Source: Streptomyces seoulensis
GTDB lineage: Bacteria > Actinomycetota > Actinomycetes > Streptomycetales > Streptomycetaceae
Length of the DNA: 64,000 nt
Assembly: GCF_004328625.1 (NCBI RefSeq)
Contig: NZ_CP032229.1
Location: 372,001 to 436,000 of the forward strand
Direction: 5' to 3'
Below the pieces are notes generated by a model. It ran no database searches. It worked only from the letters and a program-made list of their open reading frames with translations, and was not told the origin of the DNA. Shown in pieces: positions 1 through 32,489 of this stretch. A program made the translations under genes and the position numbers. The stretch's first letter is position 1. Every line of letters starts with the position of its first letter.

Positions 1-191
1 ACCTCGAGTACAGCGTCCGCAGCCTGTACAACCCCGCCGTGTACCGCGACGCCGGGCTCGACCAGCCCCTCGAACTGCGCCGCCGACTGCTGGAGCACCC
101 GGCCCGGCACGCCGCGCACACCGCGATCCTCAACCGTACCCGCAAGTTCCTCGCCCGCAACGGCCTTCAGGTCCAGGGAGCATCGGCATGA
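1..191 (+). CDS. C-terminal end of an unidentified protein (partial)
   Basis: Only the last 62 codons are inside the window, read from base 3 to the TGA at 189-191. The stretch is rich in Arg, Leu and His and ends with RNGLQVQGASA. Its stop overlaps the carrier-protein start (ATGA), so it is translationally coupled to the carrier protein and amino acid:carrier-protein ligase. In such cassettes the neighbour is often a flavin dehydrogenase or another enzyme acting on the tethered amino acid, but the fragment shows no diagnostic motif, so no function is assigned. Confidence 0.75.
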   Translation, partial: LEYSVRSLYNPAVYRDAGLDQPLELRRRLLEHPARHAAHTAILNRTRKFLARNGLQVQGASA

Positions 192-436
192 GCGACGACA
201 AGCTGACCAAGATCCTCACCTTCATCCACCAGCGCAACCCCGAGGTGGGCGAGCTGAACCTGGACGACGACCTGATCGACCGCCGCGCGGTGGACTCGCT
301 GGCCTTCGTCGAGTTCCTCTACCTGCTGGAGGAGCTGAGCGGGGAGACCATCGACCCCGAGGAGATCGACGTCGAGGACTTCCGCACCCTGCGCGCCATC
401 GACAAGCGCTTCCTGCACGGCGCGGCGGCCCACTGA
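188..436 (+). CDS. Acyl/peptidyl carrier protein
   Basis: An 82-residue acidic protein of the usual carrier-protein size. The phosphopantetheine attachment serine is Ser37 in the AVDSLAFVEF motif (DSL core), followed by the helix-2 pattern VEFLYLLEEL. It should be turned into its holo form by the phosphopantetheinyl transferase at 2154 and loaded by the aminoacyl-tRNA-synthetase-like ligase whose ATG overlaps its TGA by one base. This pairing is the known arrangement for stand-alone carrier proteins that accept a free amino acid from SerRS-like ligases. Which amino acid is loaded cannot be read from the sequence. Confidence 0.9.
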   Translation: MSDDKLTKILTFIHQRNPEVGELNLDDDLIDRRAVDSLAFVEFLYLLEELSGETIDPEEIDVEDFRTLRAIDKRFLHGAAAH

Positions 437-1275
437 TGGGCACCGCCACGGGGACGACGGACAACGGCCTCGGCGTCCTCGGCCCGGACGAGCTGCGGCT
501 GCTGCGGGCCTTCGACTCCCTGGTGCTGTCCTGGGCGCACGAGTGGGAGGCCCAGGAACGGCGCTACCCGTTCCTGCTGCGGCCGGCGGACCTGGAGTCC
601 ATCGACTACTACGAGAACTTCCCGCACCTGGGTCTGGCCGCCGTCGCGGCCGACCCGGCCCGGCTCGGGGAGCTGCGCGCCGGTGCCGCGAGCCCGCTGG
701 CGGAGCTGCCGGCGTCCGTCCTCAACGACGCGGCCCTGGCCCTGCCCTCGGCCGCGTGTTACTCGGTCTACTTCGACCTGAAGGACCGGGCGCTTCCGGC
801 GACGGAGAACCGGTTCACCACGGTCGCCACCTGTTTCCGCAACGAGACGCACTACGAGGGCCTGCGCCGGCTGCTCGGCTTCAGCATGCGCGAGATCGTG
901 TTCGTCGGCTCGCCCGAGGGCGCCACCGAGCACCTGAAGCGCGCCAAGGAGCAGGTGCTGGGCCTGGCCGGCCGGCTGGGCCTGAAGATGACCACCGAGG
1001 TCGCCACCGACCCGTTCTTCGACCGCACCGGCTCCCGGGCGACGATGCAGCGCCTCTTCCCGGTGAAGGAGGAGTTCGTGGTGGACGGCCTGGCCATCGG
1101 GTCGGTCAACTACCACCGCAACTTCTTCGGGGAGCGCTGCGCGATCTCCCTGCCCGACGGCGCGCCCGCCTCCACCAGTTGCCTGGCCTTCGGCCTGGAG
1201 CGGTGGGTGCACGCGCTGACCACCAGGTTCGGTGACGCCCGGTCCGCCGCCGAGGCGGTCCTCGAAGCCGTCTGA
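436..1275 (+). CDS. Amino acid:[carrier protein] ligase, SerRS-like (class II aaRS fold)
   Basis: A 279-residue protein resembling the truncated seryl-tRNA-synthetase homologues that lack the tRNA-binding arm and transfer an activated amino acid to the phosphopantetheine of a carrier protein. The class II motif 2 is ATCFRNETHYEG (from Cys133) and motif 3 is CLAFGLERW. Cys108, Glu137 and Cys249 are candidates for the Cys/Glu/Cys zinc site of the atypical SerRS family. It follows the carrier protein directly (1-base overlap), its expected partner. Characterised relatives prefer glycine or alanine; the substrate here is unknown. It is not a housekeeping SerRS because the N-terminal coiled coil is absent and the protein is far too short. 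Confidence 0.87.
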   Translation: MGTATGTTDNGLGVLGPDELRLLRAFDSLVLSWAHEWEAQERRYPFLLRPADLESIDYYENFPHLGLAAVAADPARLGELRAGAASPLAELPASVLNDAALALPSAACYSVYFDLKDRALPATENRFTTVATCFRNETHYEGLRRLLGFSMREIVFVGSPEGATEHLKRAKEQVLGLAGRLGLKMTTEVATDPFFDRTGSRATMQRLFPVKEEFVVDGLAIGSVNYHRNFFGERCAISLPDGAPASTSCLAFGLERWVHALTTRFGDARSAAEAVLEAV

Positions 1276-30109: not shown

Positions 30110-32190
30110 GACCGGCCCCCCGCGGAGGACGCGGCCGGGCCAACCTCAAGGGCGGTCTCCAGCACGGCCGTCACCATCGCCCGCGACTTCACGACCGTCT
30201 CCTCGAACTCCTCCTCGGGGTCCGACAGCGCCACGATCGCCCCGCCCACCCCGAACGCGACCCGGTCAGGCGTGGCGACGAGGGTGCGGATCACGATGTT
30301 GAGATCGGCGGCCCCGCTCAGCGAGAACCAGCCCAGCGACCCGGAGTAGACCCCGCGCGGCCCCTCCTCCAGCCGGTCGATGATCTCCATGGTGCGCAGC
30401 TTCGGCGCCCCCGTCATCGACCCGCCGGGGAAGGCGGCCCGCACACAGGAGACGGCCGTCTCCTCGGGCCGCAGCGTGCCACGGATGGTGGAGACGAGCT
30501 GGTGCACGGGCGCGTAGGTCTCCACGTGGAACAGGCGCGGTACGTGCACGGACCCGACCTCGGAGACCGAGTTGAGGTCGTTGCGGATCAGGTCGACGAT
30601 CATCAGGTTCTCGGCGCGGTCCTTCTCCTGGCTGAGCAGGTCCTGCCGCAGTTCCTCGTCCTCGGCCGGGGTGGCGCCGCGCGGCCGGGTGCCCTTGATG
30701 GGCTTGGACTCGGTGACCCGGTCCGTGCCGACCGTGACGAACCGCTCGGGCGAGGCGCTGAGCACGGCGACGCCCTGGAAGTCGAGCAGCGCCCCGTACG
30801 GCACCGGGCTCAGCCGGCGCAGCCGCGCGTAGGTGGTGAGCGGGTCGATGCGGACGTCCATGACGGCGGAGTTGGTCAGGCAGACCTCGTACGTCTCGCC
30901 CTGCCGGATCTCCTCCAGGCTCTGCCGGACCCGGTCGAGGTAGGCGTCCTTGCCGTGCCGGAGCCGCAGGAGGTCACGGGCGTCCGGGTCGGTCATGCCG
31001 GTGTAGCGGGCCGGGGGCTCTGGTGCGGTGCCGGGGGCGGGCAGGGCGCGCAGACTCGCCTCGGTGTCGTCCAGCCAGCGCAGGGCGTCGCGGTCGTCGC
31101 CGTCGGCGGAGAGGGCGAGGAGGTAGGTGACGCCCTCGGTGTGGTCGACGGCGAGCATGCGGTCGGTGAACAGCATGGCCGCGTCCGGGGTGGCGGACTT
31201 GTGCACGGCCTGGCCGCCGGTCTCGGCCTTGAGCTCGTAGCCGAGGTAGCCGACGTAGCCGAGGTTGAACTCGAAGGGCAGCCCGGCCGGTACGGGCACG
31301 GCGCGGGCGCGGATCTGTTCGTCGAGGTACTCGAAGAAGCCCTGCTCGACGATCTCGCCCTCGTCGTCGGCGCGGCCGGGGCTGCGGACGGTGACACCGC
31401 CGTCGGAGACCCGGTAGCTGACGTACTCGGCGAGCGGGCCGCGGCCGTCGCCGAGGAAGGAGAAGCGGGACAGGCCGTCGATGACGGCGCCGCTGTCCAG
31501 CCAGAAGCTGTGGGCGTCCCCGGCGAAGAGGGACCGGTAGGCGGCCTCGGTGTCGGGCTGGAGGCCGATCCGCCGGGTGTGCACGGTGTACCGGGAGCCG
31601 CCGGCGCCGGTGGCCCGGTGGGCGAGGGCGAGGCGGCGGAAGTTGCGCAGCAGGTCGCGGCCGTACTCGCTGCTGATGGACTCGGGGTGGAACTGCACGC
31701 CCCACACCGGCCGGGACACATGCCGGACGCCCATGATCACGCCGTCCCCGGTCCAGGCGACGGCCTCGAGTTCGTCGGGCAGGTCGGTGGCGGCGAGCGA
31801 GTGGTAGCGCACCACGTCGAAGGGGCTGGGGAGTCCGGCGAAGAGGTCGGTGCCGTTGTGGTGGACGGCGGAGATCCGGCCGTGCATCGGCTCGGGCGCG
31901 AGGGCGACCGTGCCGCCGAACAGATGGGTGATGCCCTGGTGGCCCAGGCAGACGCCGAGCACGGGCAGTCCGCTGTCGAGGATGGCGCGGGCGCTGATGC
32001 CGAAGTCCCGCTCGCGGTCCGGGCGTCCGGGTCCGGGCGAGATGACGACGGCGTCGAACTCCTCCAGCCGCAGCGCGGACCAGTCGGCGCCGTTGCGGAC
32101 GACGACCGGCGGCCGTCCGTTCACCTCGCCGAGCAGCTGGTAGAGGTTGTAGGTGAAGGAGTCGTAGTTGTCGATGAGCAAGGTCCTCAC
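30106..32190 (-). CDS. pabAB: Fused 4-amino-4-deoxychorismate synthase (PabA-PabB)
   Basis: A 694-residue fusion. Residues about 1-195 are a class I glutamine amidotransferase ([15 protein letters not shown] with the nucleophile Cys; VQFHPESI with His/Glu). Residues about 230-690 are the chorismate-binding synthase. Its motif is [12 protein letters not shown]: the Lys in PIKGT is typical of PabB, whereas anthranilate synthases have Ala there, so the product should be aminodeoxychorismate. VDLIRNDLN and [11 protein letters not shown] are also present. No PabC lyase lies beside it; with a chorismate mutase and dehydrogenase adjacent, the product goes to 4-aminophenylalanine rather than to folate. 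Confidence 0.93.
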
Positions 32191-32489
32191 GAGGAACCTC
32201 CGATCACCCGGTCCTCGACGCGGCAGGTCTCCTCGATCACGAGGTCGTACAGCCTGCGCAGGAACTCCCGGTCGATGCCGTGCCGTTCGCCGTAGCGGGC
32301 GGCGCGTTCCTGGACGATGCCGATCCGGTGCGGCTGCATCATCGGCACGTCGTGCTCCCGCTTGAAGTGGCCGATCTCCACGCACTTCTCGATCCGGGCC
32401 CGCAGTTCGTCAAGGAAACGTCCGTCGATCGCGTCGAGCTCCGCCCGAAGGTCCTCGATGGTGACGCCGGCTGTCGGCCTCTCCCCCAT
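32187..32489 (-). CDS. papB: Chorismate mutase, AroQ type (4-amino-4-deoxychorismate mutase)
   Basis: A 100-residue all-helical AroQ mutase: [19 protein letters not shown] with the first active-site Arg, [15 protein letters not shown] with Lys, [19 protein letters not shown], and [14 protein letters not shown] with the C-terminal Glu. Stand-alone mutases of this size are typical of pap clusters; it should rearrange aminodeoxychorismate to aminodeoxyprephenate. ATG 32489 follows GGAGGGGCAGCC; a longer reading frame upstream lacks a ribosome site. It is the first gene of the large minus-strand operon, and its stop overlaps the pabAB GTG. Confidence 0.9.

Follow-up and report, generated by a model that had tools for sequence, protein, structure and literature searches.

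A conserved Streptomyces seoulensis gene cluster with a putative diazotase for 4-aminophenylalanine adjoins a griseolutein-type phenazine cluster

The window analysed here, a stretch of 64,000 nucleotides (bases 372001-436000 of the main contig of the 6.43-Mb genome of Streptomyces seoulensis), carries predicted genes for nitrous acid release, 4-aminophenylalanine synthesis and peptide ligation, and it raises the question of whether these form one gene cluster and what such a cluster might make. The first-pass annotation had proposed a single cluster over positions 1-32489, in which these three functions were joined with an aminoacyl-tRNA synthetase (aaRS)-like ligase block. The three do belong together, with an aryl diazotase in the same gene run; the join with the aaRS-like block was not borne out, the left part going with phenazine genes, and 12183-32582 is a separate, conserved natural-product cluster. 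We consider it probable that 12183-32582 is one cluster for a short peptide whose 4-aminophenylalanine is diazotised, and that 1-12124 is part of a griseolutein-type phenazine cluster next to it.

A conserved gene run around a putative aryl diazotase

The genes of the cluster are as follows.

32187-32582, minus strand: chorismate mutase of the PapB type, at the head of the run (CM_2, 56.6 bits, cut-off 27)
30106-32190, minus strand: fused aminodeoxychorismate synthase PabAB (Chorismate_bind and GATase; TIGR00553 pabB, 364 bits, cut-off 328)
29237-30109, minus strand: PapC-like dehydrogenase, prephenate dehydrogenase family (PDH_N and PDH_C)
27464-29155, minus strand: putative ATP-dependent aryl diazotase (ANL superfamily), the key enzyme
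26817-27467, minus strand: Rv2466c-like mycothiol-dependent reductase, a cluster-borne second copy (PF22234, 265 bits)
24106-26715, minus strand: two-domain ATP-grasp L-amino-acid ligase ATPg2 (ATP-grasp_4 in two stretches, LAL_C2)
22850-24109, minus strand: major facilitator superfamily (MFS) exporter MFS3, conserved with the run (MFS_1, 101 bits)
21648-22853, minus strand: one-domain ATP-grasp L-amino-acid ligase ATPg1 (ATP-grasp_4 and LAL_C2)
20318-21565, minus strand: MFS exporter MFS2, found in the near clade only (MFS_1, 107.5 bits)
19334-20314, plus strand: HisC-type aminotransferase (NF002878, 455 bits, cut-off 374)
18339-19337, plus strand: LuxR-type regulator, 4-nt overlap with the aminotransferase (weak GerE match, under cut-off)
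16314-18044, minus strand: ANL2, a degenerate adenylation domain with a C-terminal COMT-like fusion
14381-16309, minus strand: CreE-like aspartate N-monooxygenase, nitrosuccinate synthase (NAD_binding_9; 707 bits to 8cp2/8cp5)
12999-14384, minus strand: CreD nitrosuccinate lyase (NF052556, 775 bits, cut-off 650; CreD structure 5xny, 572 bits)
12183-12944, minus strand: PEP mutase/isocitrate lyase superfamily protein, PEPM-like (PF13714, 221 bits)

The nine genes for chorismate mutase, PabAB, PapC, diazotase, Rv2466c, ATPg2, MFS3, ATPg1 and MFS2 lie on the same strand, with junctions that are either 4-nt overlaps or gaps of 81-101 nt. A second run contains CreE and CreD, the 642-aa CreE-like frame overlapping CreD by 4 nt, together with ANL2. 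We compared the cluster across a genus sample of 392 genomes and a class sample of 202 genomes. The two-domain ligase gave some match at 1e-60 in 70 of the 392, and the relatives compared are all nine other full-length two-domain ligases found there, with 40 kb fetched for eight of them and 20 kb for G112 (G and L numbers are our labels for genomes and loci). The order chorismate mutase-PabAB-PapC-diazotase-Rv2466c-ligase-MFS-ligase is kept in all nine, chorismate mutase adjoining PabAB in each; the same nine carry MFS3, the second ligase, the aminotransferase and the LuxR-type regulator. CreE and CreD are present in eight, the exception being G112, whose contig starts 0.9 kb before the regulator and whose last 10 kb were not fetched. 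The PEPM-like gene occurs in 7/9, as does a DAHP synthase gene, while MFS2 was found only in G369.

Outside Streptomyces, all four Microbispora loci have chorismate mutase-PabAB-PapC-diazotase and the first ligase half, and CreE/CreD were found in all four (three loci and an extension of the fourth). Among the named genomes listed, the two-domain ligase places Streptomyces griseoluteus JCM 4765 (95% identity) and S. bauhiniae (96%) nearest, a listing that may omit records closely related to the genome of the window.

Eight of the nine relatives carry a nonribosomal peptide synthetase (NRPS)-like gene (incomplete or fragmented in G112 and G379), with the domain order A-Ox-PCP-TE as read by eye and not by family scan. 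Seven carry a cysteine-synthase-like gene and further ATP-grasp genes, none of which the window has; the names NRPS-like and cysteine-synthase-like were read from the sequence in the same manner. No full-length counterpart of the NRPS-like gene was found in the S. seoulensis genome. S. bauhiniae has, about 80 kb away from its main cluster, a separate locus with the NRPS-like gene, a partial aminotransferase match, CreD and CreE; the NRPS-like gene was seen also in the related clusters L057 and L074.

The diazotase subfamily is tied to PapC

The diazotase and the Rv2466c-like gene had both been missed by the first-pass annotation, as had the phenazine genes left of the window. The best NCBIfam model for the diazotase is AvaA6, 3-aminoavenalumate diazotase (NF058622), at 346 bits, while the next model reaches 134 bits. 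Identity as an AvaA6 equivalog was rejected, the cut-off being 975 bits, and the two proteins are related only. In fold and sequence the enzyme is nearest to CmaA6 and Tri17 (about 30% identity) and not to acyl-CoA ligases. The P-loop, the hinge D(A)I.T..G and the motif TGKVLKR are common to the diazotase and CmaA6/Tri17 in alignments and are largely kept in the relatives; the ATP P-loop, the Mg/ATP glutamate (E339 by motif) and the C-terminal lysine are invariant in 23 aligned homologues. E339 would correspond to CreM E352 given in a review.

In the genus sample, diazotases of at least 55% identity lie within 5 kb of PapC in 13/13 cases, versus 0/10 for those of 44-48% (rows below 44% were left out of this count). 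Outside the genus, all three matches in the class sample lie within 3 kb of PapC. This tie of the subfamily to PapC suggests that the arylamine is the substrate. A diazotase of this type is missing in 10 of the 23 genus-sample genomes with a PapC match. Two recent PDB entries named FadD, 9xb8 and 9xbs, probably from Microbispora, are close homologues of the diazotase; they show that other groups are working on this enzyme, and part of the finding may be known to them.

Precursor, nitrous acid and ligase genes

As the first-pass annotation had stated, a papABC-type set is present, with PabAB, chorismate mutase and the PapC-like gene adjacent and the aminotransferase, which likely performs the last step to 4-aminophenylalanine, in the same cluster. 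From these gene families the pathway product is predicted to be 4-aminophenylalanine; PabAB sets can also serve other aminochorismate products. The CreE/CreD-like pair was likewise found, CreD above its family cut-off and the CreE-like match to 8cp2 spanning residues 5-629 of 642, although 8cp2 is named just FAD-binding protein. At the level of family assignment, CreE and CreD would release nitrous acid from aspartate.

The three ATP-grasp domains previously noted are those of the one-domain gene 21648-22853 and the two-domain gene 24106-26715. Both genes combine ATP-grasp with the LAL_C2 domain of L-amino-acid ligases, and the best PDB matches of the ATPg2 halves are BL00235 and BacD. The Rv2466c-like protein is one of two copies in the genome, with the active site CPFA in the cluster copy and CPWA in the other, where the solved Rv2466c-type chain has CPWC; the cluster copy retains the first active-site cysteine, and since the genome's other copy also has a single cysteine, this trait is not peculiar to the cluster.

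ANL2 can be aligned with canonical ANL proteins, yet its P-loop is gone and its C-terminal COMT-like domain is truncated. Its structure model is weak (mean pLDDT 59), the C-terminal COMT-like match being the usable part, and the protein looks like a pseudoenzyme. Four Kitasatospora relatives of ANL2 bear a TauD domain (PF02668) beside the AMP-binding domain. The PEPM-like protein reaches none of the five listed equivalogs; its gene accompanies diazo clusters, including two Microbispora loci (L070, L071).

The left end of the window probably belongs to a phenazine cluster

Just left of the window lies the core of a griseolutein-type phenazine cluster, and positions 1-12124 form its margin. In that flank (G000:C1:359836-372191; L003, L004), types PhzB, C, D, E, F and G occur together with a methyltransferase: PhzA/B (279 bits), PhzF (249 bits), a DAHP synthase, a PhzE type, a PhzG type and a PhzD-type isochorismatase by Pfam, with PhzC, D and E named by family and neighbourhood. 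The block also encodes an acyl-CoA dehydrogenase and an AurF-type protein, as well as two genes that we take to be LuxE-like and LuxC-like, both with weak matches (AMP-binding at 30.1 bits, cut-off 29.9, for the first; LuxC at 19 bits, under cut-off, and aldehyde dehydrogenase at 43 bits for the second). By gene content and species, it is probably the griseolutein cluster; S. griseoluteus has both blocks. The phenazine side of the window holds the following.

188-436, plus strand: carrier-protein-like frame, 82 aa (DSLAF motif, no Pfam match)
436-1275, plus strand: aaRS-like amino acid:carrier-protein ligase (NF005479, 122 bits, missing the cut-off of 357)
1232-12124, part 1: hydrolase, phosphopantetheinyl transferase (PPTase; 2154-2753, plus strand), BBE oxidase, MFS1, LysR
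1232-12124, part 2: SnoaL-like, NmrA/epimerase-type gene (9004-9858), aldo/keto reductase, metK (10937-12124, plus strand) and, presumably, a ParB-like regulator

All gene types named in the first-pass annotation, the three MFS genes with Pfam matches among them, thus exist as open frames, and all have family support except the carrier protein, a frame of the right size. The aaRS-like ligase, carrier-protein-like frame and PPTase are present as described; their membership in the diazo cluster did not hold. The aaRS-like ligase, carrier protein and hydrolase belong to the phenazine cluster, and PPTase and metK probably to the phenazine side.

We read two clusters because of conservation: the left cassette recurs without diazo genes, and the diazo relatives lack the left genes. 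A set of AurF-like gene, aaRS-like ligase and hydrolase occurs at nine loci in eight other genomes, and the 7-20 kb scanned there contain no CreDE, diazotase, pap or phenazine match. A PPTase-like match accompanies the set at three of the nine loci, and a gap sized for the carrier protein is present, though the carrier protein was no query there. In 8/9 diazo-cluster relatives, of which seven were covered over 40 kb and G112 over 20 kb, none of the aaRS-like ligase, hydrolase, PPTase and metK gave a match at 80 bits or more; only G369, a near relative, also has ANL2, metK and genes of window 1-12124. In other Streptomyces (L098-L106), this trio of AurF-like diiron protein, aaRS-like ligase and hydrolase was seen with no phenazine match in the scanned stretches; it may build a small acyl group on a carrier protein.

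In G002, the diazo genes lie between PhzE-PhzG and LuxC-LuxE-methyltransferase-AurF-ligase on a single 42-kb contig (L086, L087, L107). The contig reads metK, ParB-like regulator, acyl-CoA dehydrogenase, PhzE, PhzF, PhzG, CreE, CreD and DAHP synthase; then first ligase half, Rv2466c, regulator, aminotransferase, diazotase, PapC, PabAB and chorismate mutase; and finally LuxC-like, LuxE-like, methyltransferase, AurF-like, carrier protein, amino acid:carrier-protein ligase and hydrolase. The hydrolase, metK and ParB-like regulator of the window are thus matched on a contig that carries phenazine genes. Across the genus sample, the amino acid:carrier-protein ligase is found at 75% or more in three genomes (S. 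seoulensis itself, G369 and G002), which belong to two lineages. We take the co-occurrence of both sets in these genomes as more than chance, a judgement for which no probability was computed; the interleaving in G002 makes a shared product, or joint use of two clusters, possible.

G+C content across the window is 68-78% in 2-kb blocks, and no RNA families or tRNAs were found in it. Further right, genes for a BPD_transp_2 transporter permease (54303-55307) and an alpha-L-rhamnosidase (57684-61250) mark what is probably a sugar-uptake region unrelated to the cluster.

A proposed route and its alternatives

Gene content, order, conservation and family are what the sequence gives, and from them we infer the flow, ligation, diazotisation and export. 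Chorismate would be converted by PabAB, chorismate mutase, PapC and the aminotransferase to 4-aminophenylalanine, and aspartate by CreE and CreD to fumarate and nitrous acid. The L-amino-acid ligases, with their three ATP-grasp domains, would join 4-aminophenylalanine with other amino acids into a short peptide. The diazotase would activate nitrite with ATP and diazotise the aromatic amine, either in the free amino acid or within the peptide; the MFS pumps would export the product, and the Rv2466c-like thiol enzyme might handle the reactive group or shield against it. The diazonium may be kept or become an azo, triazene, hydrazine or other group.

Several observations weigh against this route. 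G177 has pap genes and a 55% diazotase, yet no ATP-grasp or CreDE match in the 20 kb fetched, and its diazotase is without two of the three motifs searched. An Rv2466c match is absent from the 20 kb of G309, and relatives of the first ligase half occur in two named genomes (L064, L065) without pap or diazotase matches in 21 kb. The PapC-like protein scores under the cut-offs of the listed prephenate dehydrogenase models, and therefore its name rests on context; similarly, with the AvaA6 cut-off missed and only about 30% identity to characterised diazotases, the substrate is assigned from gene context. Finally, the scheme gives no role to ANL2 or the PEPM-like protein.

As a tentative extension, the product could be a short peptide antibiotic with a para-alkyl aryl diazonium, or a directly derived group such as an azo, triazene or azide, lacking the adjacent hydroxyl that tempers the reactivity of diazoquinones. 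As a vehicle, the peptide would bring the reactive group into other cells, the mycothiol enzyme would protect the producer and, in some species, it would be made with a phenazine.

It is rather unlikely that diazotisation serves deamination, the diazonium being merely an intermediate replaced by H, OH or a thiol to give a product without an N-N bond. The ava and cma pathways do so with AvaA7/CmaA7 to reach avenalumic and p-coumaric acid (available text of PMC10777205), and the Rv2466c-like enzyme is a member of a thiol-dependent reductase family. Loss of nitrogen from 4-aminophenylalanine would, however, give phenylalanine or tyrosine, which cells make directly, and the NmrA/epimerase-type gene lies on the phenazine side and was matched in just G369 of the nine relatives (AvaA7 itself was no query).

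A single supercluster, in which phenazine and diazotised peptide are joined in one molecule or made as partners, is unlikely. The position of the diazo genes inside the phenazine set of G002 argues for it, as does the presence of both sets in all three genomes with the amino acid:carrier-protein ligase. Against this, eight of the nine diazo-cluster relatives show, in the 20 or 40 kb covered, no phenazine-gene match save DAHP synthase in seven, and griseoluteins carry a hydroxyacetyl group or are cysteine adducts, with no peptide, in the available part of PMC12380601.

It is improbable that the ANL enzyme nitrosates another amine, such as a peptide N-terminus or side chain, to an N-nitroso, triazene or azide group while 4-aminophenylalanine is a building block only. 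Tri17, nearly as close in fold, is a promiscuous N-nitrosylase according to the accessible text of PMC11705231; the tie of the subfamily to PapC nevertheless points to the arylamine. Very improbable is the original single cluster, in which the aaRS-like ligase and carrier protein feed the diazo peptide: the blocks adjoin in the window, S. griseoluteus and G369, and share the G002 contig, but the cassette stands without diazo genes at its nine other loci and is unmatched in 8/9 diazo clusters.

Comparison with known systems

The papABC route to 4-aminophenylalanine is that of chloramphenicol, pristinamycin and obafluorin, and we know of no nitrous acid genes or diazotase beside such pathways. 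The cremeomycin cluster (CreE, CreD, CreM) likewise combines a nitrous acid pathway with an ANL diazotase, the CreD of the window reaching 572 bits to 5xny; to our knowledge, that cluster has no peptide ligation. Tri17, at about 30% identity to the diazotase, is the N-nitrosylase of the triacsins, which are N-hydroxytriazenes. Griseolutein producers include S. griseoluteus and S. seoulensis HEK131; here a PhzB-PhzG-type set and a methyltransferase adjoin the diazo cluster, and S. griseoluteus has both blocks. No griseolutein gene cluster is described in the available part of PMC12380601.

The ava, cma and spi clusters (avenalumic acid, p-coumaric acid and spinamycin) likewise pair CreE/CreD nitrous acid with an ATP-dependent ANL diazotase acting on an arylamine, as far as the accessible texts go (PMC10777205; PMC11705231). 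There the ava/cma arylamine derives from 3,4-AHBA (an aminohydroxybenzoic acid) and a type II polyketide synthase, whereas the cluster described here has PabAB/PapB/PapC precursor genes and ATP-grasp assembly. The Pfam scan, which covered the main frames at 1-38.8 kb, returned no ketosynthase or AHBA-synthase-type family. Described diazotases act on aminohydroxybenzoic or polyketide-type arylamines in the literature available to us. The subfamily tied to 4-aminophenylalanine genes is present in 16 sampled genomes (13/392 of the genus, 3/202 of the class) and in Microbispora; if our reading is true, enzymatic diazotisation extends to an amino acid and peptides, genome mining gains a marker for reactive peptides, and diazonium or azo amino acids might be made enzymatically. 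No cluster combining CreE/CreD, a papABC set, a diazotase and ATP-grasp ligases was found in open-licence PubMed Central, subscription journals and MIBiG lying outside that search. The ligases themselves resemble L-amino-acid ligases of the BacD and BL00235 types, to which the ATPg2 halves correspond, with the difference that the cluster has two of its ATP-grasp domains fused in one protein and the third in a protein of its own.

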